NCBI RefSeq assembly: GCF_007474605.1
Contig: NZ_VHKL01000002.1
Span: forward strand, 310,001-374,000
Direction: 5' to 3'
Length of the DNA: 64,000 nucleotides
Origin: Rhodoligotrophos appendicifer
Lineage (GTDB): Bacteria; Pseudomonadota; Alphaproteobacteria; Rhizobiales; Im1
Shown here: one piece after another, positions 25,928-48,056 of the stretch
Position numbering within the stretch: the stretch's first letter is position 1
Layout: each line of letters opens with the position of its first letter
Position numbers and translations under genes: made by a program
Notes under the pieces: generated by a model
Told to the model about the DNA's origin: nothing
The model's database searches: none
The model's input: the letters and a program-made list of their open reading frames with translations, nothing else

Positions 25928-25941
25928 TTGATGCAGATCAA
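25928..25941 (-). promoter_or_regulatory. FNR/FixK box upstream of ccoN
   Basis: TTGATGCAGATCAA is a perfect TTGAT-N4-ATCAA site. Its centre is about 68 bases from the ccoN ATG, so a class II (-41.5) arrangement would put the transcript start some 27 bases before the gene. Eleven bases of the core and flanks (CCTTGATGCAGATCA) recur at the 43966 box. Confidence 0.88.
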
Positions 25942-25971
25942 TTCCGATGGAAAGGGCGCCAGAGCGCGGCG

Positions 25972-27675
25972 TCAGGACACGGGCGCCGCATAACGCCGCC
26001 AGATCGCCTTGCGCATGCGGCGACGACTCTCCGCCGCATCGAGGGTCGGATCCGCCTCGATCCTGGCGGCGGCGGCAGCAAGGCCCTCGTCCTTGATGAC
26101 CTTCCTGAACCAGGAGGAATAATCACCGGCGCGCAGGTGATGGTTCCAGGTCGCGTCGTCGACCGAATCGCCAATCTCGATGAAGCGAAACAGGTTCGGC
26201 GCCCGGAGGTTCACAGCGAGGTCCGGCCCACGAAAATAGAAGCTGTGCCAGTGGCCGACGTCGCCGACGGCATACTTGCCGGCATGGCGCTTATGGGTCT
26301 GGACCGGGACCTCCAGGATCACATGCTCCAATATGCCGGAGCGCAAGGACCAATAGAGCGCCTCGCCTGTCCTGGGTGCTGGAATGCGCTCCGGAACAGG
26401 CCTGCCGGTGGATTCGGCGAAGGCCTTGATGGCGTGCTCCGGAGATCCATCCAGCACGATCACCGTCGTCACCTGTCGCAGCGCCTCTATGGCAAGGGAG
26501 TTTGGGAAGAGCGTCAGGAGGATGGCGGTGGGGATGTCGTCACCGGACAGCAGATCCGTTACCGGACAGCAGGCGGGCAGCACCTGATGCGCCTCATCGA
26601 TGATGAGCCAATGGGGCCGGCCCGTCCTTTGCCGCAGCCGTGACGTCTGGAGCAAAACCGAGGCGAAGACCCTGCAGCGTTCCTCCAGGTTCAGCATCTG
26701 GGTGTTGATGACGATGCTCACGCCCGTCTCGTTGAGCAGCTTCAGCGCTTCATCCGCCCTCGGGGGGACCCCCGGGCTGCCGATGGGGACCGCATGCTGC
26801 AGATCGACGTAGTCGCCTTCCGGATCGAGAATGCAGAACTCGAAATTCTGCTCGGCCATGTGCTCCGTCAGTGCCGTCGCCAACGTCGATTTGCCCGAAC
26901 CGGAGGGGCCGACGATCAGCACGCTGCCGTCGGTCGACTGGAGGTCGATCGCTTCGCCGCCGGAACCGCGGCCGAGCCGGATGCCGGCGTTCCGGGGAGA
27001 CGCGAGCTTTGCATCTTCGCGAATGATACGCTCCACCAATTCGACGATGCCGGCGCCATGATCCCCGCGCAGGCAGATGTCCGCCGCCGCCTTGACGGCC
27101 GGGAGCGCATTGGCGACCGCAGCCGCGCAGCCGCAGGCCTGGAGGAAAGCGTGGTCGTTCTCGGCATCACCGACGGCGACCACATTCAGCCGAGAGATAT
27201 CGAGCTCATGGAGTGCCGCAGAGAGGCCGCTGGCTTTGTTGACGCCCGTCGGCAAAACCATCACCGCACCCTTGTTGAACACGATCTGCAGCTCGAGACC
27301 CAGCTCCTGGATGGCGCGGAGAACTTTTCCCTGGCAGGGCTCCCAGGTCGCGACAATGCCGCGGCCAACGGAAAGGGGTTCGACTTCGAGGGCTTTCAGC
27401 CGTTCGATGAAGGCGGCGGACGGCGGCGGCGCGAGCAGGCGCTCCTGCCCCGACAGGGGATCGAAGATGAGCGCCCCATTCTCCGCGACGACGCGGTCGA
27501 AGACCCCGATCCCAGGAAAGATCGGCAAGAGCTCCGGCAGCTCGCGGCCGGTCACCAGGATCAAGCGGCGCCCGGTCGACTTCAGGCGCTCAAGGGCTGC
27601 CAAAGTGGCCGGCGCAACGATGCCGTCCTTGGCGATGGTGCCGTCATAGTCTGCTGCGAGCGCCAGGAAATGCAC
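25972..27675 (-). CDS. HAD-IIB phosphatase fused to HerA/DUF87-like ATPase
   Basis: A 567-residue two-domain protein. Residues 1-215 form a HAD-IIB (Cof or sugar-phosphatase type) domain: nucleophile loop AADYDGTIAKDG (D9, D11), VTGR at 41 and the metal loop GDAENDHAFL at 169. Residues 240-about 470 form a P-loop ATPase: Walker A GPSGSGKST (256-264), LDPEGDYVDL and Walker B WLIIDEAHQV (356-365), as in HerA/DUF87 proteins. The C-terminal 100 residues are unassigned (YFRGPDLAVNLRAPNL). It follows the host-attachment gene by 5 bases and ends 30 bases from the ccoN FixK box. I know of no defined function; the pairing of a small-molecule phosphatase with a DNA-translocase-like ATPase is unusual. 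Confidence 0.8.
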   Translation of the reverse strand: MHFLALAADYDGTIAKDGIVAPATLAALERLKSTGRRLILVTGRELPELLPIFPGIGVFDRVVAENGALIFDPLSGQERLLAPPPSAAFIERLKALEVEPLSVGRGIVATWEPCQGKVLRAIQELGLELQIVFNKGAVMVLPTGVNKASGLSAALHELDISRLNVVAVGDAENDHAFLQACGCAAAVANALPAVKAAADICLRGDHGAGIVELVERIIREDAKLASPRNAGIRLGRGSGGEAIDLQSTDGSVLIVGPSGSGKSTLATALTEHMAEQNFEFCILDPEGDYVDLQHAVPIGSPGVPPRADEALKLLNETGVSIVINTQMLNLEERCRVFASVLLQTSRLRQRTGRPHWLIIDEAHQVLPACCPVTDLLSGDDIPTAILLTLFPNSLAIEALRQVTTVIVLDGSPEHAIKAFAESTGRPVPERIPAPRTGEALYWSLRSGILEHVILEVPVQTHKRHAGKYAVGDVGHWHSFYFRGPDLAVNLRAPNLFRFIEIGDSVDDATWNHHLRAGDYSSWFRKVIKDEGLAAAAARIEADPTLDAAESRRRMRKAIWRRYAAPVS

Positions 27676-27680
27676 GGCTC

Positions 27681-28133
27681 TCAGGTCCAGAGTCTCGCCA
27701 CGTGCTTCTCGATCTCATTGACGGGAAGATTGGTCAGCTCCTTGTCCAGCTCCGCCTTGACGGCGGAGGTGACAGCGGGATCGAGATGGCGCCTCAACTC
27801 GGCCAGGGCCTTGGGTGGTGCCGCAACGATCATGCCGCCTGCGGCGCGGTCGCGAAACGTGTCGTTGATCGCCTCGGCCACGCTGCGGACGAATTCGTCC
27901 TCGCCTTGCTGGTGCCAGTCCGTCTGCTCGACGGCGCTGGTGGGGAAGCTGCGGCCCTGCTGGCGGCCGGGACGCTCAGTGCCCTGGTCAGAGGTCTTGG
28001 GATTGCTGCCGCTTGAAAACTCCCGCTCCACCTGCAGGTTGAGGGCGATGGCATCGCCCTGATTCCGCAAGAGCAGAGCCTTGGTTCCGTCGCAGACCAG
28101 CACGTGTTCATCGTGGTGAAGCCGAACACTCAT
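27681..28133 (-). CDS. Host attachment family protein
   Basis: A 150-residue protein of the family named protein required for attachment to host cells. Features are an early VLVCDGTKALLLRN strand-turn, a charged, disordered middle rich in Ser, Gln and Arg, and the C-terminal MIVAAPPKALAELRRHLDPAV motif followed by DKELTNLPVNEIEKHV. It resembles release-factor eRF1 domain-like folds. The start at 28133 has GGAAGGA 7 bases upstream. It is the middle gene of a three-gene unit between the tandem USP and the HAD-ATPase fusion. The family name comes from one plant-pathogen study; the biochemical role is unknown. Confidence 0.85.
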   Translation of the reverse strand: MSVRLHHDEHVLVCDGTKALLLRNQGDAIALNLQVEREFSSGSNPKTSDQGTERPGRQQGRSFPTSAVEQTDWHQQGEDEFVRSVAEAINDTFRDRAAGGMIVAAPPKALAELRRHLDPAVTSAVKAELDKELTNLPVNEIEKHVARLWT

Positions 28134-28165
28134 TGAGGAATCCTTCCGCTGATTGGTGCGCGTGA

Positions 28166-29026
28166 TCAATGGGCCATCAGCATGGGCACCGGGCACTCGG
28201 TCAGGAAGTCTCGCGTCATCCCGCCGAGAACCGTTTCCCGCAAGCGGGAATGTCCATAGCCTCCCATGATAACGAGATCGGAGCCAAGGCGTTCGATCTC
28301 GTTCAAAAGACCCGCCGATTGGCTGTGCCATTCCGGGATATGTCTGAGCTCCGCCGCAATCCCGTGACGCGAAAGGTGACGGGCGAGGTCCGCACCTCGT
28401 TCCTCGCCCGCCTCCTCTGCCGGCCGCTCCACATCCGTGAGAGCGACCACCACCTGTTCCGCGCGTCGCAGAAAAGGCATGCCCTCGGCGATCGCCCGGG
28501 TCGCCTCGCGCGAACCGTTCCAGGCGATCAGAACCGATGCCGCAGCGTCGCGGGGTTCGCTTGCCGGGGGCACGACATAGACGCTGCGACCGGATTCGAA
28601 CAACGCGGCTTCGAAGACATTCGGCCAACGACTGTCGCGGTCATCCTTCGAGTAAGGGCGGGTCACCACGAAGAGATCGCTCGATCGTGACTGATCGGCG
28701 ATCGCGTCGCGCATCTCCATCATGAAGAGGTCCAGCTTGCGCACCTCGCCATTGACCTGCAGCAAGCGGAACCGCTCCGCGAGACGGTCCTTGACCCGCT
28801 CGGAATCGACGCGGCCCTTTTGCTGAAGCTCGGCCAGAAGAAGTGCACCGGAGAATTCCGGGGTCGGAGCCCAGACCTCGGCGGGGATCAAGTTCGTATA
28901 AAGTCCGGTCAGGTGGGCACCGAACCGGAGGGCGAGGCTTTCAGCATGTTTGATGCGGGCCTCGTCGCCGGACGTGCCATCGAGATGCACCATCACGTCC
29001 CTGATTTCCGAAAGTCTCTGGTTCAC
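28166..29026 (-). CDS. Tandem universal stress protein
   Basis: A 286-residue protein with two UspA-like halves. The first begins IRDVMVHLDGTSGDEARIKHAESLA. The second contains VLIAWNGSREATRAIAEGMPFL and ends with the ATP-type motif MGGYGHSRLRETVLGGMT. The start is a GTG at 29026 with AGGAGG 7 bases upstream. It is the first gene of the unit leading to the host-attachment and HAD-ATPase genes, and lies 58 bases from the centre of a perfect FixK box. A close paralogue lies at 47074-47919, also next to such a box, which points to shared oxygen control. Confidence 0.9.
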   Translation of the reverse strand: MNQRLSEIRDVMVHLDGTSGDEARIKHAESLALRFGAHLTGLYTNLIPAEVWAPTPEFSGALLLAELQQKGRVDSERVKDRLAERFRLLQVNGEVRKLDLFMMEMRDAIADQSRSSDLFVVTRPYSKDDRDSRWPNVFEAALFESGRSVYVVPPASEPRDAAASVLIAWNGSREATRAIAEGMPFLRRAEQVVVALTDVERPAEEAGEERGADLARHLSRHGIAAELRHIPEWHSQSAGLLNEIERLGSDLVIMGGYGHSRLRETVLGGMTRDFLTECPVPMLMAH

Positions 29027-29077
29027 GGTGGATCCTCCTATGCGCCCCAACAACAGCGTCACACTTGTCCTGCCGCA

Positions 29078-29091
29078 TTGATCGATATCAA
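29078..29091. promoter_or_regulatory. FNR/FixK box in the divergent region
   Basis: TTGATCGATATCAA matches TTGAT-N4-ATCAA perfectly. The centre lies 58 bases from the USP GTG on the minus strand and 60 bases from the ATG at 29145 on the plus strand, so one dimer could in principle serve both operons. Confidence 0.85.
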
Positions 29092-29144
29092 GGCGCTCCC
29101 TCGCTCGAACGTCAATTCTCGGCTGTAACAGGAGGAGATCGACC

Positions 29145-29573
29145 ATGCTTCATCACATCACCCTGCATCTCGCCCGCAACGCAGAGTTTCCCGCAGGCAG
29201 CGTCCGACACGGCTACAATCTTGTGGCGCCGCTGACGGAGGCCGGCCATCTCGATCCGGACGTCTGGGCGGGAGCTCGCGATCGCTGCACCGTCCGCAGG
29301 TTCTGGGCCAATGAGGACGACCGGCACGGCCTGCTACGGCACAAGGCCGGAGGTGCCCATGGAGCCACGTGGATCATCGATTACGACCCCGACTCGAGCG
29401 ACGATGACGAGCCTGGCTATCGGTTGGAGTCGCATGTCTTCGCGCCAGGCGAATATGTGACGATCAAAGACCAACAGGGTGCGCACACCTTTCGGATCGC
29501 AAGCGTTTCAGCGGTCCCGTCACCCCAACCGTCCTCCGCCGCGGTCAGCGGCATCGCGGGCCCGCGGCCGTGA
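29145..29573 (+). CDS. Conserved hypothetical protein, first gene of the cytochrome c/P-type ATPase operon
   Basis: A 142-residue soluble protein that I cannot assign to a named family. It starts MLHHITLHLARNAEFP and has an acidic middle (DPDSSDDDEPGY) and a C-terminal beta-type segment (HVFAPGEYVTIKDQQGAHTFRI). The tail is Pro/Ser/Ala-rich. It has no signal peptide or membrane helix. AGGAGG lies about 10 bases upstream of the ATG, and a FixK box 60 bases upstream. Its stop overlaps the start of the cytochrome gene (GTGA), so the two are co-translated. A function in microaerobic metabolism is suggested only by context. Confidence 0.8.
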   Translation: MLHHITLHLARNAEFPAGSVRHGYNLVAPLTEAGHLDPDVWAGARDRCTVRRFWANEDDRHGLLRHKAGGAHGATWIIDYDPDSSDDDEPGYRLESHVFAPGEYVTIKDQQGAHTFRIASVSAVPSPQPSSAAVSGIAGPRP

Positions 29574-29902
29574 GGGCGGCAGTCACGGGGATGGTGCTGA
29601 TGCTCGCGGGGGTGACCGCAGCTCAGGCCGAGACCCCATCCGAGACTCCATCCATCCGCCGCGGCCGGGCACTGGTGCAGCTCTATTGCTCTTCCTGCCA
29701 CGCCATCGGCCTGACCGGTGAGAGCCCGCTCGCCATCGCGCCGAAGTTCCGCGACCTGCACAAGAACTATCCCGTGGAAGATCTCAGCGAAGCGCTGGCG
29801 GAAGGGATCGTCACCGGGCATCCGTCAATGCCGGAATTCCAGCTTCACCCCGCCGAGATCATTGATGTGATAGGCTATCTAAAGACCCTCGAAGAGCCTT
29901 GA
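29570..29902 (+). CDS. Small exported mono-heme cytochrome c
   Basis: A 110-residue protein with an N-terminal signal peptide (MVLMLAGVTAAQAE) and one CxxCH site, CSSCHAIG near residue 41, with a distal Met in HPSMPEF near residue 85. It is a class I periplasmic cytochrome. The GTG start overlaps the previous stop. The P-type ATPase starts 22 bases downstream. It could feed electrons to the cbb3 oxidase under low oxygen; the FixK box upstream of the operon fits this, but the partner is not proven. Confidence 0.88.
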   Translation: MRAAVTGMVLMLAGVTAAQAETPSETPSIRRGRALVQLYCSSCHAIGLTGESPLAIAPKFRDLHKNYPVEDLSEALAEGIVTGHPSMPEFQLHPAEIIDVIGYLKTLEEP

Positions 29903-29924
29903 GCAGAAAGTTTAGGCGAGCAGG

Positions 29925-32462
29925 ATGATTTCTGCTGTAGATGCCCGCTCGCCCGAGATGGGGCTGACGTCGGCGGAAGCGGCCATCCGTCTGCGTCGAG
30001 ACGGACCCAATGAGCTGCCGCGCGCGGAGCACCGCTCTTCCTTGCGCATCGTGCTCGATACGGTGCGCGAGCCCATGTTCATGCTGCTGCTCGCGGCCGG
30101 TGTTCTCTATTTCATCATCGGCGATCCGCTCGAGGCCGCAATCCTGTTCGGTTTTGCGACCCTTTCGGTGGTCATCGCCGTAGTCCAAGAACTGCGGACA
30201 GAGCGAGCGCTCGAAGCCCTGCGCGATCTCTCGAGCCCGCGCGCGCTAGTCCTGCGAGACGGTGTGGAACGGCGCATTCCGGGGCGGGAGGTGGTGGAGG
30301 GCGATGTCATCCTCATCGCCGAGGGTGATCGCATTCCGGCGGATGGCATGCTGCTGGCCGCCGCCAGCCTGGAGGTGGACGAGTCGCTCCTGACGGGCGA
30401 ATCGATCTCGGTGCGCAAGTCGGCAAGCCATGGTGCACCTTCGGGCGCCGTTCGGGCGGGCAGCGACACTCCCAGCGCCATCTTCTCCGGTGCCCTTGTC
30501 GTGGGCGGCCATGGCCGCGCCCGCGTGGTGAATACCGGCGGGCGCACGGAGCTCGGGCGCATCGGCCAGAGTCTCAGCGACATCGAGCGTGAGCCGCCCC
30601 GGCTGCGCGCCGAGACGCGGCGACTTGTCCGCCTTTTCGCCATCGTTGCCGTCTTCGTGAGCGTGCTGGCTGGCCTCCTCTATTACACGCTTGCGGGCGA
30701 GGACTGGTCCACGGCCACGCTCGCCGGCATCGCCTTGGCCATGGCAATGCTGCCGGAAGAATTTCCCCTCATCCTCACCGTGTTCACGGTCATGGGCGCC
30801 ATTCGCATCGCGAAAGCCCGCGTCCTGACGCGGCGTGCCGCGGCGATCGAGGCGCTTGGCGCGGCGACCGTCCTGTGCACGGACAAGACCGGGACACTGA
30901 CCGAGAACAGAATGAAGGTGGTGGAGCTGCGCAACGCCCATGGCCGGCTCGTCACCATTCCTTCTGGCCCGGACCGGGATCGCGCGGGTGCACCGCTGAT
31001 GCAAATTGCGGTGCGGGCCAGTCGCGACAACAGCTTCGATCCCATGGAACGCGCCATTCACCAGGTCGGCGCATCCGCCGATGTCGAATCGCTGGCGCCA
31101 GTTCGCGATTTCGGTCTGCGCGAAGACCTGCCGGTCATGGCACGGGCCTGGCAAGAGGCTGGCTCGGAGCGCAGGATCCTGGCCGCAAAGGGGGCGCCAG
31201 AAGCCGTGGTCAGGCTTTGCCGCCTGTCGGATCCGGAGGCCACCACCGCCCTTGCCGCCGCGCGCGAGATGGCGATGCGGGGCCTGCGCGTCCTCGGGCT
31301 TGCGGATGGTGAGTTCATCGATCGTGGCAGCGCCCGGCTGGAAGACCAGACACTTCAGTTCCGAGGACTGCTCGCCCTGGCCGATCCGCTGCGCGAAGGC
31401 ATTCCCGATGCCGTGCGAGAGTGCCGCGCCGCCGGCATCCGCATCGCCATGGTCACGGGCGACCATCCCGGCACGGCGGCGGCCATTGCAGGCGAGGCGG
31501 GCCTTGCCGCCGAACCGGTGGTCACCGGTCTCGAGCTCGCTGCCCTGGATGATGAGGGCTTCGACAGAAAAGTTCGCGAGGCGGCCGTGTTCGCCCGCAT
31601 CCTGCCGGAACAGAAGCTGCGCATCGTGCAACGGCTGAAGGCGCAAGGGGCGATCGTCGCCATGACGGGGGACGGGGTGAATGATGCCCCCGCCCTCAAG
31701 GCCGCCCATATCGGGATCGCCATGGGCGGACGCGGCACGGATGTCGCCCGCGAAGCCGCCGCCATGGTGCTCCTCGACGATGATTTCAGCTCGATCGTGC
31801 GCACCATAAGGCTGGGACGGCGCACCTTCGATAATCTTCGCAAGGCCATGAGCTATGTCATGGCGATGCATGTCCCCATCGCCGGCATCGCCTTCCTGCC
31901 CTTGGTCATGGGTCTGCCGCCCTTGCTGGGGCCCTTACACATCGCCTTCGTGGAGATGTTCATCGATCCGGTGTGCTCCATCGCCTTCGAAGCCGAGCCT
32001 GAGGAGCGCGATCTCATGGACCGGCCGCCGCGTCCGGCAGCGGCACCGCTCCTGCCGCTCTCGCTCATGTTGTGGAGCCTGGTGCAAGGACTGGCCGCCT
32101 TCGCTGCGGCCGGCACGGTCTATGTCCTGTCGCTAGAGCTCGATGCGCCTCAGGACATTGTTCGCAGCCGCACCTTCCTCGCGCTGGTCCTTTCGAACCT
32201 CGCGCTGATCATCGTGGACCGCTCTTTCAGCTCGTCGCTCTGGACGGCCCTGACGCGGCCGAACAGGGCGCTGATGCTGGTGGTCGCGGCGGCCCTTTCC
32301 ATCCTCGCCTTGGTCTTCGGCGTGCCCCAGCTCGCGCGGCTGTTCCAGTTCGGCGCCGTCGGAATGGCCGGCTTCGGCATGTCGATCGGCGCAGCGGTTG
32401 CCGTCGTTCTGCTGCTCGAGGGGGCAAAGGCTGCAGGGATCGCCGCACGCCTTCGGCGGTGA
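29925..32462 (+). CDS. P-type cation-transporting ATPase (type II)
   Basis: An 845-residue P2-type ATPase of normal length. In order: N-terminal cation-ATPase domain (LTSAEAAIRLRRDGPNELP), actuator motif DESLLTGESISVRKS, M4 metal-site helix with PEEFPLILTVF, phosphorylation site CTDKTGTLTENRM, hinge MTGDGVNDAPALKAAHIG, and the M6 stretch EMFIDPVCSIAFEAEP. The PEEFP in place of the SERCA PEGLP and the acidic M6 suggest transport of a divalent cation such as calcium or manganese; this cannot be fixed from sequence. It is the last gene of a FixK-box operon with a cytochrome c. Confidence 0.9.
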   Translation: MISAVDARSPEMGLTSAEAAIRLRRDGPNELPRAEHRSSLRIVLDTVREPMFMLLLAAGVLYFIIGDPLEAAILFGFATLSVVIAVVQELRTERALEALRDLSSPRALVLRDGVERRIPGREVVEGDVILIAEGDRIPADGMLLAAASLEVDESLLTGESISVRKSASHGAPSGAVRAGSDTPSAIFSGALVVGGHGRARVVNTGGRTELGRIGQSLSDIEREPPRLRAETRRLVRLFAIVAVFVSVLAGLLYYTLAGEDWSTATLAGIALAMAMLPEEFPLILTVFTVMGAIRIAKARVLTRRAAAIEALGAATVLCTDKTGTLTENRMKVVELRNAHGRLVTIPSGPDRDRAGAPLMQIAVRASRDNSFDPMERAIHQVGASADVESLAPVRDFGLREDLPVMARAWQEAGSERRILAAKGAPEAVVRLCRLSDPEATTALAAAREMAMRGLRVLGLADGEFIDRGSARLEDQTLQFRGLLALADPLREGIPDAVRECRAAGIRIAMVTGDHPGTAAAIAGEAGLAAEPVVTGLELAALDDEGFDRKVREAAVFARILPEQKLRIVQRLKAQGAIVAMTGDGVNDAPALKAAHIGIAMGGRGTDVAREAAAMVLLDDDFSSIVRTIRLGRRTFDNLRKAMSYVMAMHVPIAGIAFLPLVMGLPPLLGPLHIAFVEMFIDPVCSIAFEAEPEERDLMDRPPRPAAAPLLPLSLMLWSLVQGLAAFAAAGTVYVLSLELDAPQDIVRSRTFLALVLSNLALIIVDRSFSSSLWTALTRPNRALMLVVAAALSILALVFGVPQLARLFQFGAVGMAGFGMSIGAAVAVVLLLEGAKAAGIAARLRR

Positions 32463-32497
32463 GCCCCCACAGGGCATCAGCAGCTGCAGCAGCATGG

Positions 32498-33481
32498 TCA
32501 CGGCACCAGAACGGCAGCACCTTGGAAGCGGCCTTCGCGCAGATCCTCCAGCGCCTCGTTGGCGCGCTCGAGAGGATAGACGGTGGTGGTCATCTCGATT
32601 CCCATCTGCGGTGCCAGCTTCAGGAATTCGACGGCGTCGCGACGGGTCAGGTTGGCGACCGAAACGAGCTCCCGCTCCTCCCAGAGGAGATCGTAGGAAA
32701 ATTGCGGGATGTCGCTCATGTGGATCCCGCCGCAGACCACGCGGCCGCCCTTGCGGACCGCCCGCAGCGCCAGGGGGACAAGGGCGCCGACGGGCGCAAA
32801 GATGATGGCCGTGTCCAGGGGCTCGGGCGGCGGCTCGTGAGAGGCGCCCGCCCATTTGACGCCGAGGGATCGGGCCAGCGCCTGGGCCGCCTCATCGCCG
32901 TCGCGGGTGAAGGCATAGACCTCGCGGCCTTGCCAGCGACAGACCTGCGCGAGGATGTGGGCCGCAGCGCCGAAACCGTAGAGGCCGATCCGGTGGCCGT
33001 CGCCGGCGATGCAGAGGGAACGCCAGCCGATCAGGCCCGCGCACATCAGCGGTGCCGCAGCGACCGGATCGCCACCCTCCTCCAGAGGGAACGCGAAGTC
33101 GGCGTCCGCCACCACGTGAGTGGCAAAGCCGCCGTCGCGGGTGTAGCCGGTGAAGGCGGGGTGGTCGCACAGGTTCTCCCGGCCCGCACGGCAGTAGCTG
33201 CACTGGCCGCAGGTATGCCCCAGCCAGGGAATGCCGACGCGGGTGCCGACGGCGTGGGTGGTGACCCCGGCGCCGAGCGCGTCGACGCGGCCGACGATCT
33301 CATGGCCGGGAATGATGGGCAGGCTCGCTTGCGTCAGATCGCCATCGACGACATGAAGGTCGGTGCGACAGACGGCGCAGGCCTCCACCTTCACCCGGAT
33401 CTCGCCCTGCCCGGGAACGGGATCGGGTCGCTCCTCCAGCTGGAGCGGCCGGCCGATTGCTGCGAGCACCATCGCCTTCAT
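32498..33481 (-). CDS. Zinc-dependent alcohol dehydrogenase (MDR family)
   Basis: A 327-residue medium-chain dehydrogenase. It has the catalytic zinc site (CAVCRTDLH and PGHEIVGRVD), the structural zinc loop CGQCSYCRAGRENLC, and a Rossmann part beginning LYGFGAAAHILAQ. This is the AdhA/AdhP-type arrangement found in fermentative or microaerobic bacteria. It would interconvert primary alcohols and aldehydes with NAD(H). Its start overlaps the end of the CBS-BON gene (ATGA at 33478-33481), so both respond to the promoter near the FixK-type box at 34336. The Rossmann glycine motif is GFGAAA rather than GxGxxG. Confidence 0.88.
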   Translation of the reverse strand: MKAMVLAAIGRPLQLEERPDPVPGQGEIRVKVEACAVCRTDLHVVDGDLTQASLPIIPGHEIVGRVDALGAGVTTHAVGTRVGIPWLGHTCGQCSYCRAGRENLCDHPAFTGYTRDGGFATHVVADADFAFPLEEGGDPVAAAPLMCAGLIGWRSLCIAGDGHRIGLYGFGAAAHILAQVCRWQGREVYAFTRDGDEAAQALARSLGVKWAGASHEPPPEPLDTAIIFAPVGALVPLALRAVRKGGRVVCGGIHMSDIPQFSYDLLWEERELVSVANLTRRDAVEFLKLAPQMGIEMTTTVYPLERANEALEDLREGRFQGAAVLVP

Positions 33482-34248: not shown

Positions 34249-34335
34249 GGCTACATTCCTCATTCCGGTCGGGCTCGGGGAGCGAGCCGCTGGTCGATCC
34301 CACCCCCATGATGGCATGCCTCCCGCACAAGCGGC

Positions 34336-34349
34336 TTGACGTCGATCAA
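34336..34349. promoter_or_regulatory. FixK-type box between the CBS-BON and Nudix genes
   Basis: TTGACGTCGATCAA fits TTGA-N6-TCAA and differs from the FNR consensus by one base (TTGAC for TTGAT). Its centre is 94 bases from the CBS-BON ATG and about 107 from the Nudix ATG, so either or both genes may be targets. Confidence 0.65.
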
Positions 34350-34449
34350 AGGTGATGGCCGCCGGCGATCTGCGAGGCTTGTCACACCGAACAGGTCTTC
34401 GATATGAAGAGAGCTCTCGCCGCTCCCGGTGAGACGGGAGACACCAGCC

Positions 34450-37696: not shown

Positions 37697-37712
37697 TGTA
37701 ACCGTTTGTGAC
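37697..37712 (-). promoter_or_regulatory. K-box (FxkR-type direct repeat) upstream of fixK
   Basis: Read on the minus strand, GTCACA-AACG-GTTACA is a direct hexamer repeat with a 4-base spacer, one base from the K-box GTTACA-N4-GTTACA reported for FxkR in Rhizobium etli. A further GTCACA copy lies at 37677-37682, two helical turns away. It is centred 98 bases upstream of the fixK ATG and 33 bases before the divergent fxkR-like gene. Confidence 0.7.
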
Positions 37713-40134: not shown

Positions 40135-40135
40135 C

Positions 40136-42850
40136 TCACGGCCTCTGCTTGCGGAGTGCGAGCGCGGAGGCTGCAATGAAGCCGATCGCGAACAGGGCCA
40201 GCACCAGGATATCCAACCAGAGCGCCTCGAAACCCAGTCCCTTGGTGAAGACGCCGACGGTGACGGGTTGATACCAGGCGGAGGGGAAGCCCAGGCCGAT
40301 CACCCGACCGGCGCCGGTGAGAGAGGAGACGGGGACCAGGAGGCCGGAGAAATTGACGGCAGGAATGATGGCGATGATGGCGGTGGCGAAAATGGCCGCG
40401 ACTTGGCTGCTGACGAAACTCGACAAGAAGAGGCCGAAGCCGGTGGTGGCAAAAATATAGACGATCGAGGCGAGCACCAGGGTCGCCAGGGAGCCCTTGA
40501 CCGGTACGTCGAAGACGAAGCGGGTCAGAAGGACCAGCGATATGAAGCTCAGAAACGCGATGACCACATAAGGGAGCTGCTTGCCGAGGAGAAATTCCAG
40601 CTTGGTGACCGGGGTCGACTGGAAATTCGCGATGGACCCGGTCTCCTTCTCCTTCACGATGCCGAGGGCCGACATGATGGCGGGGATCAGCACCAGCATG
40701 AGCATGATGACGCTGGGCACGATGGCATTGACGCTTTTGAAGGCCTGATTGTAACGGAAGCGGGGCTCAATGGTGATGGGGTAGGGCGCCTGCGCGATGC
40801 CGTATCGGCGAAGCGACTGATCCGCCATGTAGCTCAAGGCGATGCCGGTCACGTAGCTGCGGGTGGTCTCGGCGCGGAACGGCATGGCGCCGTCGAGCCA
40901 GACGCCCAGTTCGGGGCGCAGACCGCGCAGCAGGTCGCGGCCGAAATCGGGTGGGATCTCGATCGCCAGCTTGAGCTCCCCGCTCTTCAGCCGGCTCTCG
41001 AGATCGGCGGCATTGGCAATGGGTGGCCGTTCCTCGAAATAGCGCGAGCCCTGGAAGCTCTCCAACAGTTCCCGGCTCTGGGTGGATTGATCCTGGTCGA
41101 AGACCGCGAAGGGGAGGTCCTCCACGTCAAAGGAAATGCCGAAGCCGAAGGTGAGGAGCAGGAGCGCTGGACCCAGAAGCGCGAAGGCGAGGCGTGCGGG
41201 ATCACGCAGGATCTCCAGAGTCTCGCGCCAGGAATAGGCCCAGAGCCGTCGGGGATCGAAGAGGCGGGATTTCTGCTCCCGGGAATGGACGACCGGGGCG
41301 GGGGGCGCAGCGGCCGCACCGGGGACCGTCTCCTTCTCGAGCACCGCGATGAAGACATCCTCAAGCGTTCCATCCCCATGGGCCGCCTTCAGCTCCGCTG
41401 GACTGCCGACGGCGAGGACCTTGCCGGCATGCATCAGGGAAATGCGGTCGCAGCGTTCGGCCTCATTCATGAAATGGGTGGAGAGGAAGATCGTCACTCC
41501 GTCCTTGCGGGAGAGCTCGATCAGGCTGCGCCAGAAGGTGTCGCGCGCCACAGGATCAACGCCGGAGGTCGGCTCGTCGAGGATAAGGATCTCCGGGCCA
41601 TGAATGAGCGCCACGGCCAGCTGCAACCTCTGGCGGATCCCCAAGGGCAAGGCGTCGGGCCGGCTGTCGGCGCTCGCGACCAGATCGAAACGCTCGAGCA
41701 TCTCGCGCACGCGGGGGCCGACCTCCGACGGCGGAAGGTCGAACAATTGCGCATGCAGCACGAGGTTCTGCCGCACCGTCAATTCAGCATAGAGGGAAAA
41801 CGATTGGGACATGTAGCCAACGCGGCGACGGGTGTTCATGTCGTTGGCATCGAGCGTGTGGCCGAACAGCTTGGCCTCGCCTTCGGTGGCCGGAAGCAGC
41901 CCGGTGAGCATCTTCATGGTGGTGCTCTTGCCGCTCCCGTTGGAGCCGAGGAAGCCGAAGATCTCGCCCTTGCCAATCCGGAAGCTCACATGATCGACGG
42001 CGGTGAAGGTCCCGAACCGGCACGTCAAGCCCTCCGCTTCGATGGCTGGGGGCCCCTCATGGCGCATCGGCGGCGGATCGGGAAACGGCTCGGCCGTGCC
42101 GCGCTGGCCGTCCGGGAGGAGGGCGATGAAGGCCCGTTCGAGATCGACCGCGCCCGTGCGCGCCTTGATCTCCGAGGAGGTGCCGGTGGCGATGACCCGG
42201 CCCTTGTCCAGAGCGGCCAGCCAGTCGAAGCCGTCAGCCTCTTCCATATAGGCGGTAGCAACGACGACACTCATCTGTGGCCGCCGAAGGCGCATTCGAT
42301 TGATGAGTTCCCAGAACTGCCGGCGCGACAGCGGATCGACGCCGGTGGTCGGCTCGTCAAGGATCAGAAGGTCAGGATCGTGAATGAGGGCGGCGCAGAT
42401 GCCGAGCTTCTGCTTCATTCCGCCGGAGAGCTTCTGGGCCGGGCGGTCGGCAAAGGCGCGAAGGTCGGTTGCGGCCAGCAACTCGTCGATTCGCTCGCGT
42501 CGTTCCGCACCACCCTGGCCGAAGAGACGGCCAAAGAAATGCAGGTTTTCCTCTACGCTCAGGGTGGGATAGAGGTTGCGACCCAATCCTTGCGGCATGT
42601 AGGCGATCCGCGCGACCCGGGCGCGACGGACGGCTGCCTTCGACATGTCGCCGCCCAGCACCTGCACCGCGCCATTTTGAAGACGGGTGACGCCGGCTGC
42701 CAGCGACAGCAGCGTGGATTTGCCAACACCGTCGGGCCCGATCACGCCGGCGAGGCAGCCGCCGGGAATGGCGAGCTCGATCTTCTCCAGTGCTATCGTC
42801 TTGCCATAGCGATGGCTGACCTGGCCGAAGGTGACGACGGGGTCGGTCAT
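40136..42850 (-). CDS. RbbA-like ATPase-permease fusion (two ABC domains plus ABC-2 permease)
   Basis: A 904-residue fusion. The first ATPase domain (residues 1-about 230) has Walker A GPDGVGKSTL, signature KLSGGMKQKLG and LLILDEPTTGVDPL. The second (about 265-500) has GSNGSGKSTTMK and LILDEPTSGVDPVARD; its signature is LGIRQRLQLA rather than LSGGQ. The C-terminal third (about 540-904) carries six helices and the ABC-2 motif NFQSTPVTKLEFLLGKQLPY. Size and order match RbbA (about 911 residues). It overlaps the HlyD gene by 4 bases. RbbA was described as ribosome-associated, but in this operon an export role is more natural. Confidence 0.9.
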   Translation of the reverse strand: MTDPVVTFGQVSHRYGKTIALEKIELAIPGGCLAGVIGPDGVGKSTLLSLAAGVTRLQNGAVQVLGGDMSKAAVRRARVARIAYMPQGLGRNLYPTLSVEENLHFFGRLFGQGGAERRERIDELLAATDLRAFADRPAQKLSGGMKQKLGICAALIHDPDLLILDEPTTGVDPLSRRQFWELINRMRLRRPQMSVVVATAYMEEADGFDWLAALDKGRVIATGTSSEIKARTGAVDLERAFIALLPDGQRGTAEPFPDPPPMRHEGPPAIEAEGLTCRFGTFTAVDHVSFRIGKGEIFGFLGSNGSGKSTTMKMLTGLLPATEGEAKLFGHTLDANDMNTRRRVGYMSQSFSLYAELTVRQNLVLHAQLFDLPPSEVGPRVREMLERFDLVASADSRPDALPLGIRQRLQLAVALIHGPEILILDEPTSGVDPVARDTFWRSLIELSRKDGVTIFLSTHFMNEAERCDRISLMHAGKVLAVGSPAELKAAHGDGTLEDVFIAVLEKETVPGAAAAPPAPVVHSREQKSRLFDPRRLWAYSWRETLEILRDPARLAFALLGPALLLLTFGFGISFDVEDLPFAVFDQDQSTQSRELLESFQGSRYFEERPPIANAADLESRLKSGELKLAIEIPPDFGRDLLRGLRPELGVWLDGAMPFRAETTRSYVTGIALSYMADQSLRRYGIAQAPYPITIEPRFRYNQAFKSVNAIVPSVIMLMLVLIPAIMSALGIVKEKETGSIANFQSTPVTKLEFLLGKQLPYVVIAFLSFISLVLLTRFVFDVPVKGSLATLVLASIVYIFATTGFGLFLSSFVSSQVAAIFATAIIAIIPAVNFSGLLVPVSSLTGAGRVIGLGFPSAWYQPVTVGVFTKGLGFEALWLDILVLALFAIGFIAASALALRKQRP

Positions 42851-43914
42851 TGCGGCAGCTTGACTGCGAGTTTCTCCGGCCATGTGGCCGCCTGACTGGT
42901 GCGGACATAGGCAATGCCGCGGACGCCGATCTTCACCCGGCTCTCATATTGCTTCAGGAGGGCGGAGGAGAGCTGCAGCTTGACCCGGAACATGAGCTTC
43001 TCGCGCTCGTCGGCGGTCTCGACGGATTTCGGCGTGAACTGGGCGCCCGCGGCCACGAAGGAGATGGTGGCCGGGATCACATAGTCCGGGGCGGGGTCGA
43101 GGACGATGCGGGCTTCGTCGCCGAGCGCCAGGCGGCCGGCGGCATAGGCGGGCAGGAAGATCGTCATGTAGACGTCGGAGAGATCGAGCAGCGTCACGAC
43201 CGGCGCGCCGGCGGCGACCACCTCGCCGGCATGGGCAAGGCGGTACTCCACCCGCCCCCGGCGGGGTGCCGTCAGGACCGCATCGTCCAGCAGCGAGCGG
43301 ATGCGCGCCACCTCGGCGCGGGCGACGTCGGCACCGGCTTGCGCTTCATCGTAGCTGGCATGGGCGGCGCGCTCGCCAGCCTCCGCCACATTCAGCCGGC
43401 TGCGGCGGTTGTCGAGCTCCTGTTGCGTGGCATAGCCCCGGGACTGGAGGGTTTCCGTGCGACGAAACTCCTGCTGGGTGAGAAGCAATTCGCTCTGCCG
43501 CTGGGCGATGGCGGCCTCCGATTCCGCTATGGCCCGCTCACTGCGCCGGACCTGGGCCTCGGCCCCCTTGAGCTGCGCTTCCAATTCGGAGGTGTCCATG
43601 CGTCCGACGACGCTGCCGGCCTCGACCGTCTGGCCCTCCTCCACGAGCAGCTCTGCGATGCGGCCGGCAAACTTCGCCGAGACCAGGATCTGCTCGGCCT
43701 CGATGCGGCCGTTGGAGGAAGCGACGTCGCGAGGCAGCCGGTCGCCACCGAACCGCTGCCACAGCTCCTGCAGACGCTGCTTGAAATTCGCTTCCTGGGC
43801 ATGGGTGGTGGGGGTTCCGGAGAACGAAACGACCCCGAGGATCGCCATGAGAAGGAGTGCAATTCTGCCTGTCCGCAAAGCCGAGAGTCCCGAATGATCG
43901 CTGCCGTGATGCAT
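42847..43914 (-). CDS. HlyD family membrane fusion protein, YhiI-like
   Basis: About 355 residues with one N-terminal membrane anchor (GRIALLLMAILGVVSFSG), a lipoyl-type half (ASSNGRIEAEQILVSAKFAGRI), a long Ala/Glu/Arg-rich coiled coil (about 115-215) and the returning lipoyl and beta-barrel part (LTAPRRGRVEYRLAHAGEVV). It links the ABC permease pair to an outer-membrane channel. Tandem ATG codons (43917 and 43914) are possible; GGAAG lies 3 or 6 bases ahead. A FixK-like box is centred about 55-58 bases upstream, so the exporter may be induced under low oxygen. Confidence 0.88.
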   Translation of the reverse strand: MHHGSDHSGLSALRTGRIALLLMAILGVVSFSGTPTTHAQEANFKQRLQELWQRFGGDRLPRDVASSNGRIEAEQILVSAKFAGRIAELLVEEGQTVEAGSVVGRMDTSELEAQLKGAEAQVRRSERAIAESEAAIAQRQSELLLTQQEFRRTETLQSRGYATQQELDNRRSRLNVAEAGERAAHASYDEAQAGADVARAEVARIRSLLDDAVLTAPRRGRVEYRLAHAGEVVAAGAPVVTLLDLSDVYMTIFLPAYAAGRLALGDEARIVLDPAPDYVIPATISFVAAGAQFTPKSVETADEREKLMFRVKLQLSSALLKQYESRVKIGVRGIAYVRTSQAATWPEKLAVKLPQ

Positions 43915-43965
43915 CATGAGCTTCCGATGAGCTTGCCTCTTTAGCGAGGTGTGCGGATCCTGGCC

Positions 43966-43979
43966 TTGATGCAGATCAG
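43966..43979 (-). promoter_or_regulatory. FixK-like box upstream of the ABC exporter operon
   Basis: TTGATGCAGATCAG differs from the FNR/FixK consensus in the last base only and shares the core of the ccoN box. The centre lies about 55-58 bases upstream of the HlyD start and 96 bases from the divergent synthetase gene. Confidence 0.6.
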
Positions 43980-44009
43980 TTCCATGCCGCAATGCATCTG
44001 TCATGTGCT

Positions 44010-44023: not shown

Positions 44024-44068
44024 GTTTCGCTCACTCTATCGACAGCGCAATCGTCACGTCAGGACCCA

Positions 44069-46747
44069 ATGACCATCCGAAACCTCGATCATGCCTTGCA
44101 TCCCCGCTCCGTCGCCGTCATCGGCGCTTCGCAACGCCCCGGAGCCGTGGGAACGGTGGTTCTGAACAACATCCTGGCCGGCGGATTCGAGGGCGACATC
44201 TGGCCGGTCAACCCGAAATACCGCCACATCGGTGACCTCCCCTGCCATGGGGAGGTCAAGGACATTCCCGGCGTGCCGGATCTCGCCGTCATCATCACGC
44301 CGCCAGCTTCGGTGCCGGCCCTCATCCACGCACTCGGCGAGAAGGGGACGCGGGCCGCAGTGGTCATTACGGCGGGACTGAGCGAGAGCAACGGGCTGCG
44401 CCAAGCGATGCTGGATGCGGCCAAGCCTTATCTGTTCCGCATCATCGGCCCCAATACCGTGGGTCTCGTGATTCCGCCGGCCAAGCTCAATGCGAGCTTC
44501 TCCCATATGGGCGCAGAGCCCGGCAATATCGCGCTCCTGTCGCAATCGGGGGCGATCGCCGTGTCGCTCATCGACTGGGCCGCAGACAATCAATTGGGCT
44601 TCTCGCAGATCGTCTCGCTGGGCGACATGGCAGATGTGGATGTGGGGGATTTTCTCGATCTGCTGGCGCGCGATCCCCGCACGCGGGCGATCGTCATGTA
44701 TCTGGAATCGATCCCCAGCCCGCGCAAGTTCATGTCCGCGGCCCGGGCGGCCGCGCGGCTCAAGCCGGTCATCGTCATCAAGCCAGGGCGGCATAAGGAG
44801 GCCGCCAAGGCTGCAGCGACCCATACGGGCGCCCTGTCGGGCTCCGACCGTGTCGTCGAGGCCGTCTTCGCCCGCGCCGGCGTGCTGCGGGTCGGCGGCC
44901 TGGGCGAGCTGTTCGACGCCACCGAAACCATCTCCCGTTTCCGGCCGCTCACCCAGCTGCGCACCGCAATCGTCACCAATGGCGGTGGGGCAGGGGTTCT
45001 CGCCGTCGACCAGCTGATGGACGGCAAGGGAGTGCTTGCCGAGTTGTCAGAGGAGACGATCATGCGGCTCAACGCCGTGCTCCCGGCGAACTGGTCGCAT
45101 GGCAATCCGGTGGACATCATCGGGGACGCACCGCCCGAGCGCTACACATCCGCACTGGCGATCGTGGCGGCAGATCCGGGGGTGGACGCGCTGATGGTCT
45201 TGAACTGCCCCACGGGCCTTGCCTCGGCGGAGGCGGCAGCGCATGCGGTCGCATCGCTGGCAAAGCAGGGCCTGATCGAGGGAAAACCGGTGCTGTCATG
45301 CTGGCTTGGCGAACATACCGCGCGGGAGGGACGGCGGATCCTGCAGGACAGCGGCGTCGCCAGCTATGAGACGCCGGCCGCCACGGCAGTGGCCATGACC
45401 TATTTGAGCAGCTGGTCGCGAACCCAGGCGCTGCTGACGCGGGTGCCGCAAAGCGAAAGCGAGATCCCCGGCGACGGTCGGAAGAGGGTCGAAAAGCTGC
45501 TGCGACAGGTGGCGGCGGAGGGCCGGCGCATGCTGACGGAGCCGGAGGCGAAAGCGGCCATCCAGGCCTATGGCATCCCCGTGCCGGACACATTCGTGGC
45601 CTCCTCGATCGAGGACGTGGAGGTGGCTGCCGCCCAATTGCTCGAGAGTGCCGACAAGATCGTGGTCAAGCTCCTGTCGAAGACCATCACGCATAAATCC
45701 GACATTGGCGGCGTGGTGCTGAATATCGAGACGCCTGAGGCTGCCAGAGACGCTGCGGCGGCGATCGCCCGACGGCTGCAGGACGTCGGACAGCAAAGCG
45801 CCATCGAGGGCTATGCGGTGCAGCCGATGATCGCGCGCAGCCGAGCCCAGGAGCTGATCCTCGGCATCAACCGGGACCCTCTCTTCGGCCCCGTCATCCT
45901 GTTCGGTGCCGGCGGGGTTTCGGTCGAGGTCGTCGACGACACGGCGATCGGTCTGCCGCCGCTGGACGACGTGCTGGCGGGGGATCTGATCGACCAGACG
46001 CGGATCGCGCGCCTGCTCGCGGGCTATCGCGACCGTAAACCCGCCGACCGGCCGGCGATCATCGGCGCGCTCCTCGGGCTGTCGCAAATGATCGTGGATT
46101 TCCCCTGCATCGTCGCCATGGACATCAATCCGCTGCTTGCCGACAGCGACGGCATCATCGCCCTCGATGCGCGGGTCGAGATCGAGCCCGCGGAAATCGA
46201 CCGGACCGGACCCAATCCGGATCTCATCATCCAGCCTTATCCCTCGGGATGGTCGAAGGAGGTCGAACGGAAGGGCAACCACTACCGGCTCAGGCCGATA
46301 CGGCCAGCCGATGCCGCGCTCTATGAGACCTTCCTCCGCCATGTCTCCCAGGACGACATGCGGCTTCGCTTCTTCTCGACCCAAAAAAGCGTTTCGGAAG
46401 ACATGCTGGTGCGGCTCACCCAGCTCGATTACGACCGGGACATGGCCTTCATTGCCCTCGATCCCTCGGGGGAACTCGCAGGTGTCGCCCGGATCTCCGC
46501 CGACCCTGATCACCAAATCGCCGAGTATGGAATTCTGGTGCGAAGCAATCTCCAGGGGCAGGGCCTCGGCTGGGCCCTCTTGCAGCAGCTGATCGAGTAT
46601 GGCCGTGCCGATGGGCTGCATCGCATTGACGGCGTGATCCTCAGAGAGAATACCCGCATGCTGCAGATGTGCCGGGAGCTCGGGTTCAACATGAAGACCC
46701 ATCCCGAGGAGCCCACGCTTACCCTGGCAAGCTTGCACCTCAGGTGA
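44069..46747 (+). CDS. Acyl-CoA synthetase (NDP-forming) fused to a GNAT acetyltransferase
   Basis: An 892-residue protein: CoA-binding domain (PRSVAVIGASQRPGAVG), ligase-CoA domain (LIDWAADNQLGFSQIVSLGD), ATP-grasp domain (about 480-700) and a C-terminal GNAT domain (about 745-892; EYGILVRSNLQGQGLGWALL binds acetyl-CoA). This is the layout of protein lysine acetyltransferases of the Pat/PatZ type. The His of ADP-forming synthetases is retained at H252 in THTGALSG, so ligase activity may remain. ATG 44069 has AGGA 4 bases ahead. The gene is divergent from the exporter operon across a region with FixK-like boxes, which suggests oxygen-linked control of protein acetylation or of an acyl-CoA/ATP reaction. 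Confidence 0.87.
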   Translation: MTIRNLDHALHPRSVAVIGASQRPGAVGTVVLNNILAGGFEGDIWPVNPKYRHIGDLPCHGEVKDIPGVPDLAVIITPPASVPALIHALGEKGTRAAVVITAGLSESNGLRQAMLDAAKPYLFRIIGPNTVGLVIPPAKLNASFSHMGAEPGNIALLSQSGAIAVSLIDWAADNQLGFSQIVSLGDMADVDVGDFLDLLARDPRTRAIVMYLESIPSPRKFMSAARAAARLKPVIVIKPGRHKEAAKAAATHTGALSGSDRVVEAVFARAGVLRVGGLGELFDATETISRFRPLTQLRTAIVTNGGGAGVLAVDQLMDGKGVLAELSEETIMRLNAVLPANWSHGNPVDIIGDAPPERYTSALAIVAADPGVDALMVLNCPTGLASAEAAAHAVASLAKQGLIEGKPVLSCWLGEHTAREGRRILQDSGVASYETPAATAVAMTYLSSWSRTQALLTRVPQSESEIPGDGRKRVEKLLRQVAAEGRRMLTEPEAKAAIQAYGIPVPDTFVASSIEDVEVAAAQLLESADKIVVKLLSKTITHKSDIGGVVLNIETPEAARDAAAAIARRLQDVGQQSAIEGYAVQPMIARSRAQELILGINRDPLFGPVILFGAGGVSVEVVDDTAIGLPPLDDVLAGDLIDQTRIARLLAGYRDRKPADRPAIIGALLGLSQMIVDFPCIVAMDINPLLADSDGIIALDARVEIEPAEIDRTGPNPDLIIQPYPSGWSKEVERKGNHYRLRPIRPADAALYETFLRHVSQDDMRLRFFSTQKSVSEDMLVRLTQLDYDRDMAFIALDPSGELAGVARISADPDHQIAEYGILVRSNLQGQGLGWALLQQLIEYGRADGLHRIDGVILRENTRMLQMCRELGFNMKTHPEEPTLTLASLHLR

Positions 46748-46773
46748 GGATCCCTACCGGACAGTCGAGGCGT

Positions 46774-46971: not shown

Positions 46972-47032
46972 GTTCGCTCCGAGTAAAACCCAGCACCTCG
47001 CTAGATGAATAGTCCCGTCCGTTCGGTCCACA

Positions 47033-47046
47033 TTGATCAACCGCAA
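47033..47046 (-). promoter_or_regulatory. FixK-type box upstream of the small membrane protein gene
   Basis: TTGATCAACCGCAA reads as TTGC-N6-TCAA on the gene strand and fits the looser FixK2 consensus TTG(A/C)-N6-(T/G)CAA rather than the strict FNR site. Centre-to-ATG distance is 68 bases. Confidence 0.5.
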
Positions 47047-47073
47047 AGTACAGCCGATTTATGAGATGCTCCG

Positions 47074-47919
47074 TCAGCGGGCCATCAGCATCGGAACGGG
47101 ACATTTCTTCAGGAAATCTCGTGTGACGCCCCCCAGCATCCATTCCTGCAGGCGGGAATGGCCATAGGCTCCCATCACCACCAGATCGCAACCCAGGCGT
47201 TCGATTTCATTCAACAGGGCCGCCGAGCGGCGATGCCAGTCGGCGACATGCCGAATCTCGACCGCTATGCCATGGCGCGACAGATGCCGCGCCAAGTCGG
47301 CGCCATTCTCCTCGCCGCGCTCCTCCGCCGCTCCGTCCTCGACAAGGGCGATATGAACCTGCTTGGCACGCTGCATGAACGGGATCGCCTCGGCGACGGC
47401 CCGAGACGCCTGGCGCGAGCCGTTCCAGGCGACCAAGACGCTGTCTCCAGCAGTCGGCTGACGTCCGGGTGGCAGAATGTAGGCGGCTCGTCCCGAATGA
47501 TAGAGCGCGGTCTCGAACACCCCTGTCCAACGATCCTCGCCAGTGGCGTCGTAGGGCCTGCTGGCAATGAACAGATCCGTGCACCGTGTCTGCACTGCGA
47601 TCGCGTGATACAGCTCCACCAGATACAGATCGAGCCGTTTCAATTGGTTCGGCACCGCCAATCGCTGGAACCTCTGATCGAGGCGGGTCTCCACCCGATT
47701 GCCGTCGTCGCGGGTTTTCTCCTGAAGCTCGACCAGAAGCTCGCTCAGGAATTCCGGCGCCAAGGGCCAGCCATCTCCAGGGATCAAGTTGATGTACAAG
47801 CCCGTGAGATAGGCCTCGAAGCTCGATGCCAGGGCCTCGGCATGGGCGAGGCGAACCTCATCTTCATCCGTTCCATCGAGATGCACCATGATATCTTTGA
47901 TCGTGGAAACCGTGCTCAT
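47074..47919 (-). CDS. Tandem universal stress protein, paralogue of 28166-29026
   Basis: A 281-residue two-domain USP. The first half opens IKDIMVHLDGTDEDEVRLAHAEALA. The second contains VLVAWNGSRQASRAVAEAIPFM and ends with MGAYGHSRLQEWMLGGVTRDFLKKCPVPML. Both halves align closely with the other tandem USP of this window. ATG 47919 has a perfect AGGAGG 4 bases upstream. A symmetric FixK-type box is centred 61 bases before the start and may also serve the divergent dehydrogenase. Expression in oxygen limitation is likely. Confidence 0.9.
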   Translation of the reverse strand: MSTVSTIKDIMVHLDGTDEDEVRLAHAEALASSFEAYLTGLYINLIPGDGWPLAPEFLSELLVELQEKTRDDGNRVETRLDQRFQRLAVPNQLKRLDLYLVELYHAIAVQTRCTDLFIASRPYDATGEDRWTGVFETALYHSGRAAYILPPGRQPTAGDSVLVAWNGSRQASRAVAEAIPFMQRAKQVHIALVEDGAAEERGEENGADLARHLSRHGIAVEIRHVADWHRRSAALLNEIERLGCDLVVMGAYGHSRLQEWMLGGVTRDFLKKCPVPMLMAR

Positions 47920-47973
47920 AATGCCTCCTGGACGCTCCATCACTGCACTTTGGGCGCGATCCCGCGGGCAGGT

Positions 47974-47987
47974 GTTGACACAAGTCA
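47974..47987. promoter_or_regulatory. Symmetric FixK-type box between the USP and alcohol dehydrogenase genes
   Basis: TTGACACAAGTCAA is a perfect dyad (TTGAC/GTCAA) of the TTGA-N6-TCAA form. It is centred 61 bases from the USP ATG and 76 bases from the dehydrogenase ATG. Confidence 0.65.
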
Positions 47988-48056
47988 AGGTCGGCGAGTT
48001 TCAGCGGGGATACTTCAACAATCGCCCGGAAAGGCGACAATGATTTGGAGTTTCCC

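Follow-up and report, generated by a model that had tools for sequence, protein, structure and literature searches.

We identified a group of genes at positions 25928-48056 of a 64-kb stretch of Rhodoligotrophos appendicifer DNA that very probably represents an hFixL-FxkR-FixK oxygen cascade accompanied by a portion of the FixK regulon, a reading to which we assign a probability of about 0.87. The stretch, referred to here as the window, is C2:310001-374000 of a 5.59-Mb genome and lies on a 595-kb contig; positions given without a contig are counted within the window. A hybrid FixL-type kinase and an OmpR-type regulator were found together with a K-box common to fixK and fxkR, and the block has therefore been assigned to the hFixL-FxkR-FixK type. 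What was observed directly comprises the component genes, the motifs and how rare these are in the genome, and the recurrence at other loci. This low-oxygen block is real, well formed and ordinary in kind, one more case of a switch already described in rhizobia. A preliminary description of the same DNA had placed a sensor, a relay, an activator and several FixK-box promoters together here, and in this it was correct.

The regulators and their K-box

The hfixL gene (34914..36830, minus strand) encodes a hybrid histidine kinase in which Pfam recognises PAS, HisKA, HATPase_c and a C-terminal Response_reg domain, while the N-terminal ~130 residues have no Pfam match of their own. Over its whole length the PAS domain aligns with the heme PAS domains of solved FixL structures (E 9e-44), and His195 (counted by hand) falls at the position that holds the heme ligand in FixL. 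The kinase matches those of 17 rhizobial plasmid loci at 63-71%. Beside it lies fixK (36849..37607, minus strand), encoding a Crp/Fnr activator (Pfam HTH_Crp_2 and cNMP_binding) whose closest solved relative is FixK2 (4i2o, E 5e-34) and which matches hFixL-linked FixK proteins at 45-70%; the protein carries an E-T-V-S-R segment. The third gene, fxkR (37738..38463, plus strand), encodes an OmpR/PhoB-type response regulator (Pfam Response_reg and Trans_reg_C). We prefer the ATG at 37738 as its start; the first in-frame start, at 37708, overlaps the K-box.

This K-box, GTCACAAACGGTTACA (37697..37712, minus strand), is an exact match to GTYACA-N4-GTYACA, the only one in the genome, and is predicted to be the FxkR operator. 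Measured from its centre, the fixK ATG is 97.5 nucleotides (nt) away and the fxkR ATG 33.5 nt. Across 29 loci (the window and 28 others; the genus-mate G001, with a weak FixK homolog and a best K-box score of 8, was left out), a K-box of at least 11/12 was found upstream of fixK in 27, at a distance of 67-104 nt, compared with 0.2% of shuffles preserving base composition only. The preliminary description had counted fixK itself among the targets carrying a FixK box. This candidate was rejected, the best such site upstream of fixK scoring 8/10; a K-box, which that description had missed, stands there instead.

The same components have been described in Rhizobium leguminosarum 3841 (pRL9) and R. 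etli. These species have hFixL, FxkR and FixK, a K-box of the form GTTACA-N4-GTTACA, FixK boxes of the form TTGAT-N4-ATCAA and genetic clustering with fixNOQP (PMC7888657, PMC4999443). The window likewise has the hybrid FixL, FxkR, FixK, the K-box, FixK boxes and the clustering. In R. leguminosarum, fixK9b and fxkR9 are divergent and have one common K-box, which has been proposed to activate fixK while repressing fxkR (PMC7888657), and the window K-box is similarly single and placed between divergent fixK and fxkR. Unlike these species, the host of the window belongs to a family of the same order that is probably not Rhizobiaceae, and its three regulators form one block with one exact K-box.

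We also considered whether the kinase could be an ordinary FixL with FixJ as its partner, as in a FixLJ-FixK system. The heme PAS is indeed FixL-like, and both G001 and the family member G003 carry FixL-, FixJ- and FixK-like genes. However, the window kinase ends in a receiver domain, its neighbour is an OmpR-type and not a LuxR/GerE-type regulator, and the operator is a K-box. In addition, the G001 FixL used as a query found a 67% match in G003, whereas its best match in the window genome was hFixL at 44%, with no close FixL elsewhere. We regard the FixLJ alternative as extremely improbable.

FixK boxes and candidate output genes

Exact TTGA-N6-TCAA sites occur four times in the window (25928, 29078, 34336 and 47975), against 0.35 expected, and none of 100 shuffles reached four; sites with at most one mismatch number 25, against 11.8 expected. 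The exact boxes are TTGATGCAGATCAA (25928..25941) in the ccoN promoter, TTGATCGATATCAA (29078..29091) between the UspA gene (minus strand) and the orf142-cytochrome c-P-type ATPase genes (plus), TTGACGTCGATCAA (34336..34349) between the CBS-BON (minus) and NUDIX (plus) genes, and TTGACACAAGTCAA (47975..47988) between the UspB (minus) and ADH2 (plus) genes. All four fit the stricter pattern TTGAY-N4-RTCAA and lie 56-86 nt from the starts of seven genes. A further site, TTGATGCAGATCAG (43966..43979), has one mismatch and is probably a real FixK box, lying between the divergent HlyD (minus) and acyl-CoA synthetase-GNAT (plus) genes, the latter called PatZ here. The HlyD/PatZ intergenic region of G001 holds a 9/10 site, TTGATGCAGATCAC, which in the alignment stands opposite a second, poorer window motif, TTGATGCAGAT at ~44010, and not opposite 43966. 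An exact box precedes an HlyD homolog on an Agrobacterium plasmid.

The preliminary description had listed at least six sites, all of them intergenic. The four exact ones were recovered, with 47974 corrected to 47975, and 43966 is retained as probable. The site at 47033 (TTGATCAACCGCAA, one mismatch) was rejected as a FixK box, since it lies between converging gene ends (stops at 46747, plus strand, and 47074, minus strand), those of the acyl-CoA synthetase-GNAT and second Usp genes, and is thus outside either promoter. The five promoter sites are intergenic when starts are trimmed, but the longest mechanical open reading frames (ORFs) of UspA, CBS-BON, HlyD and UspB extend across boxes; for this reason the automatic caller rated 34336 genic and two other sites 'start uncertain'. 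With the start codons judged most plausible rather than the longest ORFs, the distances from box centre to start are 55 nt for HlyD, 56 for ccoN (from the GTG; 68 from the following ATG, counted by hand), 58 for UspA, 60 for orf142, 62 for UspB, 75 for ADH2, 79 for CBS-BON, 86 for NUDIX and 96 for PatZ, so that the earlier estimate of 55-70 bases for most boxes was a fair one (measured range 55-96 nt).

A genome scan for box density, which had been proposed as a check, found 28 strict TTGAY-N4-RTCAA sites compared with 3 for the reversed pattern. Four of them fall within 22.06 kb, where 0.11 would be expected (P 6e-6, an optimistic value because the span was itself picked by the sites). The region had been presented as a self-contained island of 32 kb; the given span is 22 kb, and the regulon is not self-contained, since 24 of the 28 strict boxes lie outside the window, of which 11 are intergenic, 5 stand at an uncertain gene start and 8 are inside genes according to the automatic caller. 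A Usp gene and a PRC-barrel gene each have one of these boxes nearby. A second four-box cluster is located on the same contig (C2:471985-479907), beside Hsp20, triple-BON, beta-CASP and FtsH-like genes.

Boxes of this type are common to FNR, FnrN and FixK (PMC7888657, PMC2908626), and cbb3 oxidase, Usp and metal P-type ATPase genes have been tabled under FNR (PMC2908626), which would fit a model in which an oxygen-sensing FNR or FnrN protein reads the boxes and FixK is secondary. Against this model, the window FixK has no N-terminal cysteine cluster; its first cysteine is residue 41, counted from the ATG at 37607. The genome has 14 PF13545 matches, four of them over the cut-off; the two strong ones were inspected, the other 12 being weaker (≤27.5 bits). 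The second strong match (C7:21060, 48 bits) also has no N-terminal cysteine cluster, fixK is the sole strongly scoring FNR/FixK-type regulator among these matches and, unlike in R. leguminosarum and R. etli, no FnrN was recognised among the strong ones. We consider this model very unlikely.

The genes linked to the boxes were identified by Pfam, and the gene set listed earlier proved largely correct. On the minus strand, ccoN (24262..25878, cbb3 oxidase subunit I) is followed by ccoO, ccoP and ccoG, to 20867, and then by a metal P-type ATPase gene (18083-20395). Next to ccoN are genes for a HAD-IIB phosphatase-P-loop ATPase fusion (25972..27675, minus), which has a 65% homolog in G001 and a 46% homolog on an Agrobacterium plasmid, a baeRF family 12 or 'host attachment' protein (27681..28133, minus) and a UspA-type universal stress protein of 286 amino acids (28166..29026, minus). 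The plus-strand gene orf142 (29145..29573) has its FixK box in common with UspA and belongs to no named family; it gave no Pfam or NCBIfam match at E 0.001 and a single sub-threshold Pfam match (E 0.015), and its G001 homolog is at 53%. It is followed by genes for a small cytochrome c (29570..29902, plus) and a cation (Ca-like) P-type ATPase (29925..32462, plus) that falls below every NCBIfam equivalog cut-off. Zinc alcohol dehydrogenase 1 (ADH1; 32498..33481, minus), the CBS-BON protein (33478..34263, minus) and a NUDIX hydrolase (34429..34917, plus) come before hfixL. Beyond fxkR are the exporter genes HlyD, RbbA and ABC-2 permease (39013..43917, minus; RbbA above the NCBIfam cut-off), PatZ, an ADP-forming type acyl-CoA synthetase fused to GNAT (44069..46747, plus; NCBIfam below cut-off), a UspB-type universal stress protein of 281 amino acids (47074..47919, minus) and zinc alcohol dehydrogenase 2 (ADH2; 48057..49130, plus). 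The two Usp genes, described earlier as tandem, are ~18 kb apart.

At the level of annotation, many of these genes match published FixK/FNR targets or microoxia-induced genes. Dufour et al. 2010 predicted an alphaproteobacterial FixK/FNR core regulon from 87 genomes, and its FixK targets include HlyD, ABC subunits, CBS proteins, cytochrome c class I and zinc alcohol dehydrogenase, as well as Hsp20 (PMC2908626). FixL and FixJ are among its FixK targets; hFixL and FxkR, unlike in the window, are not named in the available part of that account (PMC2908626). Microoxia-induced genes of Bradyrhizobium include Usp, 'host attachment', CBS, HlyD and AdhP (PMC6515984).

Two further features of the window were noted. 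A 180-amino-acid unnamed protein (38401-38943) is encoded convergently to fxkR and has homologs at 26-35% in 10 of 28 hFixL loci. A separate two-component system (54020-57019) comprises a LuxR-type regulator (54506-55141), a single-receiver protein and an adjoining kinase with no Pfam PAS match, HATPase_c being its only Pfam match.

Recurrence at related loci

Orthologs of hFixL (E ≤ 1e-190) were found in 13 of 397 genomes of the order, including the window genome, and these strong orthologs span five families and six genera. The cascade has been reported to have arisen in the ancestor of the Rhizobiaceae (PMC4999443). The 17 plasmid loci comprise 16 from the best 30 of 731 matching records and S. 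meliloti pSymA, taken by accession; 12 have flanks of ~20 kb (pSymA as 49 kb) and five have flanks of 4 kb. A contig scan of genomes gave best segments of 35-52% identity among the matches listed and was not used for counts. The pSymA locus has homologs of hFixL, FixK, FxkR, ADH2 (77%), acyl-CoA synthetase-GNAT (63%) and Usp. Its gene order differs from that of the window, and S. meliloti, unlike the window locus, also has FixLJ (PMC4999443); S. meliloti FixK controls 97 genes (PMC3596328).

FxkR homologs at 56-67% accompany hFixL at all 11 genome loci and at 9 of the 12 long plasmid loci (56-65% in the latter). In ten further genome loci (G086, G294, G346, G395, G224, G099, G186, G129, G277 and G210) the three regulators occur together within the fetched 14-38 kb without exception; they are adjacent in eight and spread over ~7 kb in G395 and ~13 kb in G186. 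In G025, a 61% FxkR is ~16 kb from hFixL. The G346 locus is much like the window: fxkR, fixK and hfixL come first, and CBS-BON and ADH1 lie ~2.4 kb further on. Tight grouping of sensor, relay and activator is thus common and was previously in print for R. leguminosarum (PMC7888657), so the earlier statement that these components are seldom gathered so tightly does not stand. Contig C12 of G395 carries two hFixL-like kinases within ~20 kb (67% and 72% to the window hFixL).

Strict FixK boxes recur around hFixL: the 12 plasmid loci hold 73 and the 11 genome loci 27, and the reversed pattern is absent from both sets. In a test of 13 loci (the 12 plasmids and G025), an exact box was found before 4/4 ccoN, 4/4 ccoG, 4/7 CBS-BON, 2/4 UspA-like, 5/11 UspB-like, 1/2 HlyD, 1/1 baeRF and 1/1 NUDIX homologs, and before 0/13 hFixL, 0/9 FxkR and 1/14 FixK genes.

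Several observations weigh against the proposed cascade and regulon. Allowing one mismatch, K-boxes show no enrichment over the genome (14 sites in total, compared with 30 for the control), and the K-box threshold is missed in G086 (10/12) and G210 (9/12). Among the 12 long plasmid loci, three (L133, L152 and L153) have no FxkR above 34% within 42 kb; in L133 and L153 the matches reach 32-34% only, and in L152 there is none. The 38 kb examined contain no strict box in four of the 11 genome loci (G086, G294, G224 and G129). No exact box precedes the homologs of ADH1 (0/3), ADH2 (0/6), PatZ (0/3) or HAD-ATPase (0/1) in the 13 loci, P-type ATPase homologs have one in 2/11 cases, and the association between boxes and module homologs is weak (25/105 against 49/332 ORFs, odds 1.8, P 0.025). 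This weak association would also suit the view that the boxes are chance occurrences within a generic accessory cluster, as would the fact that, of the six sites first listed, one is outside promoters and one more is inexact, and that 8 of the 24 strict sites beyond the window fall within genes, as expected of chance sites. That view is countered by the excess over the reversed pattern, both in the genome and around hFixL at related loci, and by sites of 9-10/10 before several G001 homologs, and we consider it highly unlikely.

As a separate observation, G086 and G294 each carry hFixL, FixK and FxkR together, and within 38 kb neither a strict FixK box nor a further module homolog was listed.

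Input and output histories and the proposed oxygen response

Neither of the genus-mates G001 and G002 yielded an hFixL ortholog, nor did G003, a member of the same family. Instead, a G001 cluster (C1:2.195-2.245 Mb) has a FixL without a receiver, FixJ and a 37% FixK, with no K-box or cbb3 genes in the 50 kb examined, while G003 has FixL, FixJ, FixK and a cbb3 operon; FixL and FixJ in both genomes were recognised from translations and the FixL query. We compared the window genes with these 50 kb, with the stretches around hFixL (10-49 kb each) and with two G003 stretches. Ten outputs match G001 best, at 53-81%, namely HAD-ATPase, baeRF, UspA, orf142, ABC permease, RbbA, HlyD, PatZ, UspB and ADH2, whereas hFixL, FixK, FxkR, CBS-BON and ADH1 have their best matches at other hFixL loci. 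There are exceptions to this split, in that the P-type ATPase is equally distant everywhere (34-36%) and the G001 stretch lacks homologs of cytochrome c and NUDIX. The window cbb3 genes match G003 and the rhizobial plasmids about equally.

Like the window, the G001 cluster has FixK-type sites, which score 9-10/10 before the UspB, baeRF, PatZ/HlyD, ADH2 and UspA homologs and only 7-8/10 before ADH1, HAD-ATPase, orf142, the P-type ATPases and FixK; a score of at least 9/10 occurs in 4% of random 220-bp pieces of the G001 region. The presence of the ten output genes near FixL/FixJ in G001 suggests that the oxygen input has been exchanged and the outputs have stayed. This is the simplest reading, and it rests on one genome of each kind. 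In a more specific version, FixL-FixJ-FixK, as found in G001 and G003, would have been replaced in place by a laterally acquired fxkR-fixK-hfixL-CBS-ADH1 cassette, and boxed microaerobic outputs (exporter, acyl-CoA synthetase-GNAT, Usp genes, dehydrogenase and HAD-ATPase) would have been kept. We put this version forward tentatively, as a possibility at somewhat less than even odds. In a tree of 19 hFixL-type kinases with one, very long, FixL outgroup, the window hFixL branched by itself amid the rhizobial plasmid copies, giving no firm direction of transfer. In a comparison aimed at the bounds of a possible genomic island, the flanks too gave no more than scattered matches in G001-G003, and no tRNA was found in the 64 kb. 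It has been reported that hFixL-FxkR substitutes for FixLJ in some species (PMC4999443); in the parts of the literature searched we found no description of an input exchange within one conserved cluster.

In the proposed response, falling oxygen would cause the heme PAS of hFixL to lose O2, and the kinase would become active and phosphorylate FxkR. FxkR would then bind the single K-box between fxkR and fixK and turn fixK on, and it would probably dampen fxkR, because the K-box is close to the fxkR start. FixK would in turn activate TTGAY-N4-RTCAA promoters with boxes ~55-90 nt upstream of start codons, its outputs being stress proteins, dehydrogenases, the exporter and the cbb3 oxidase, along with targets in other parts of the genome. 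From the sequence we predict binding of heme and O2, phosphotransfer, promoter activation and the oxygen response of the linked genes, and the physiological aim may be high-affinity respiration together with energy-stress survival.

The window genome and G001 form one genus-mate pair that offers a natural comparison, since much the same outputs are seemingly wired to two oxygen inputs. If the exchange is true, common FixK boxes would allow a sensor to be replaced without touching the outputs, and the survival of a regulon after replacement of its sensor would become testable.

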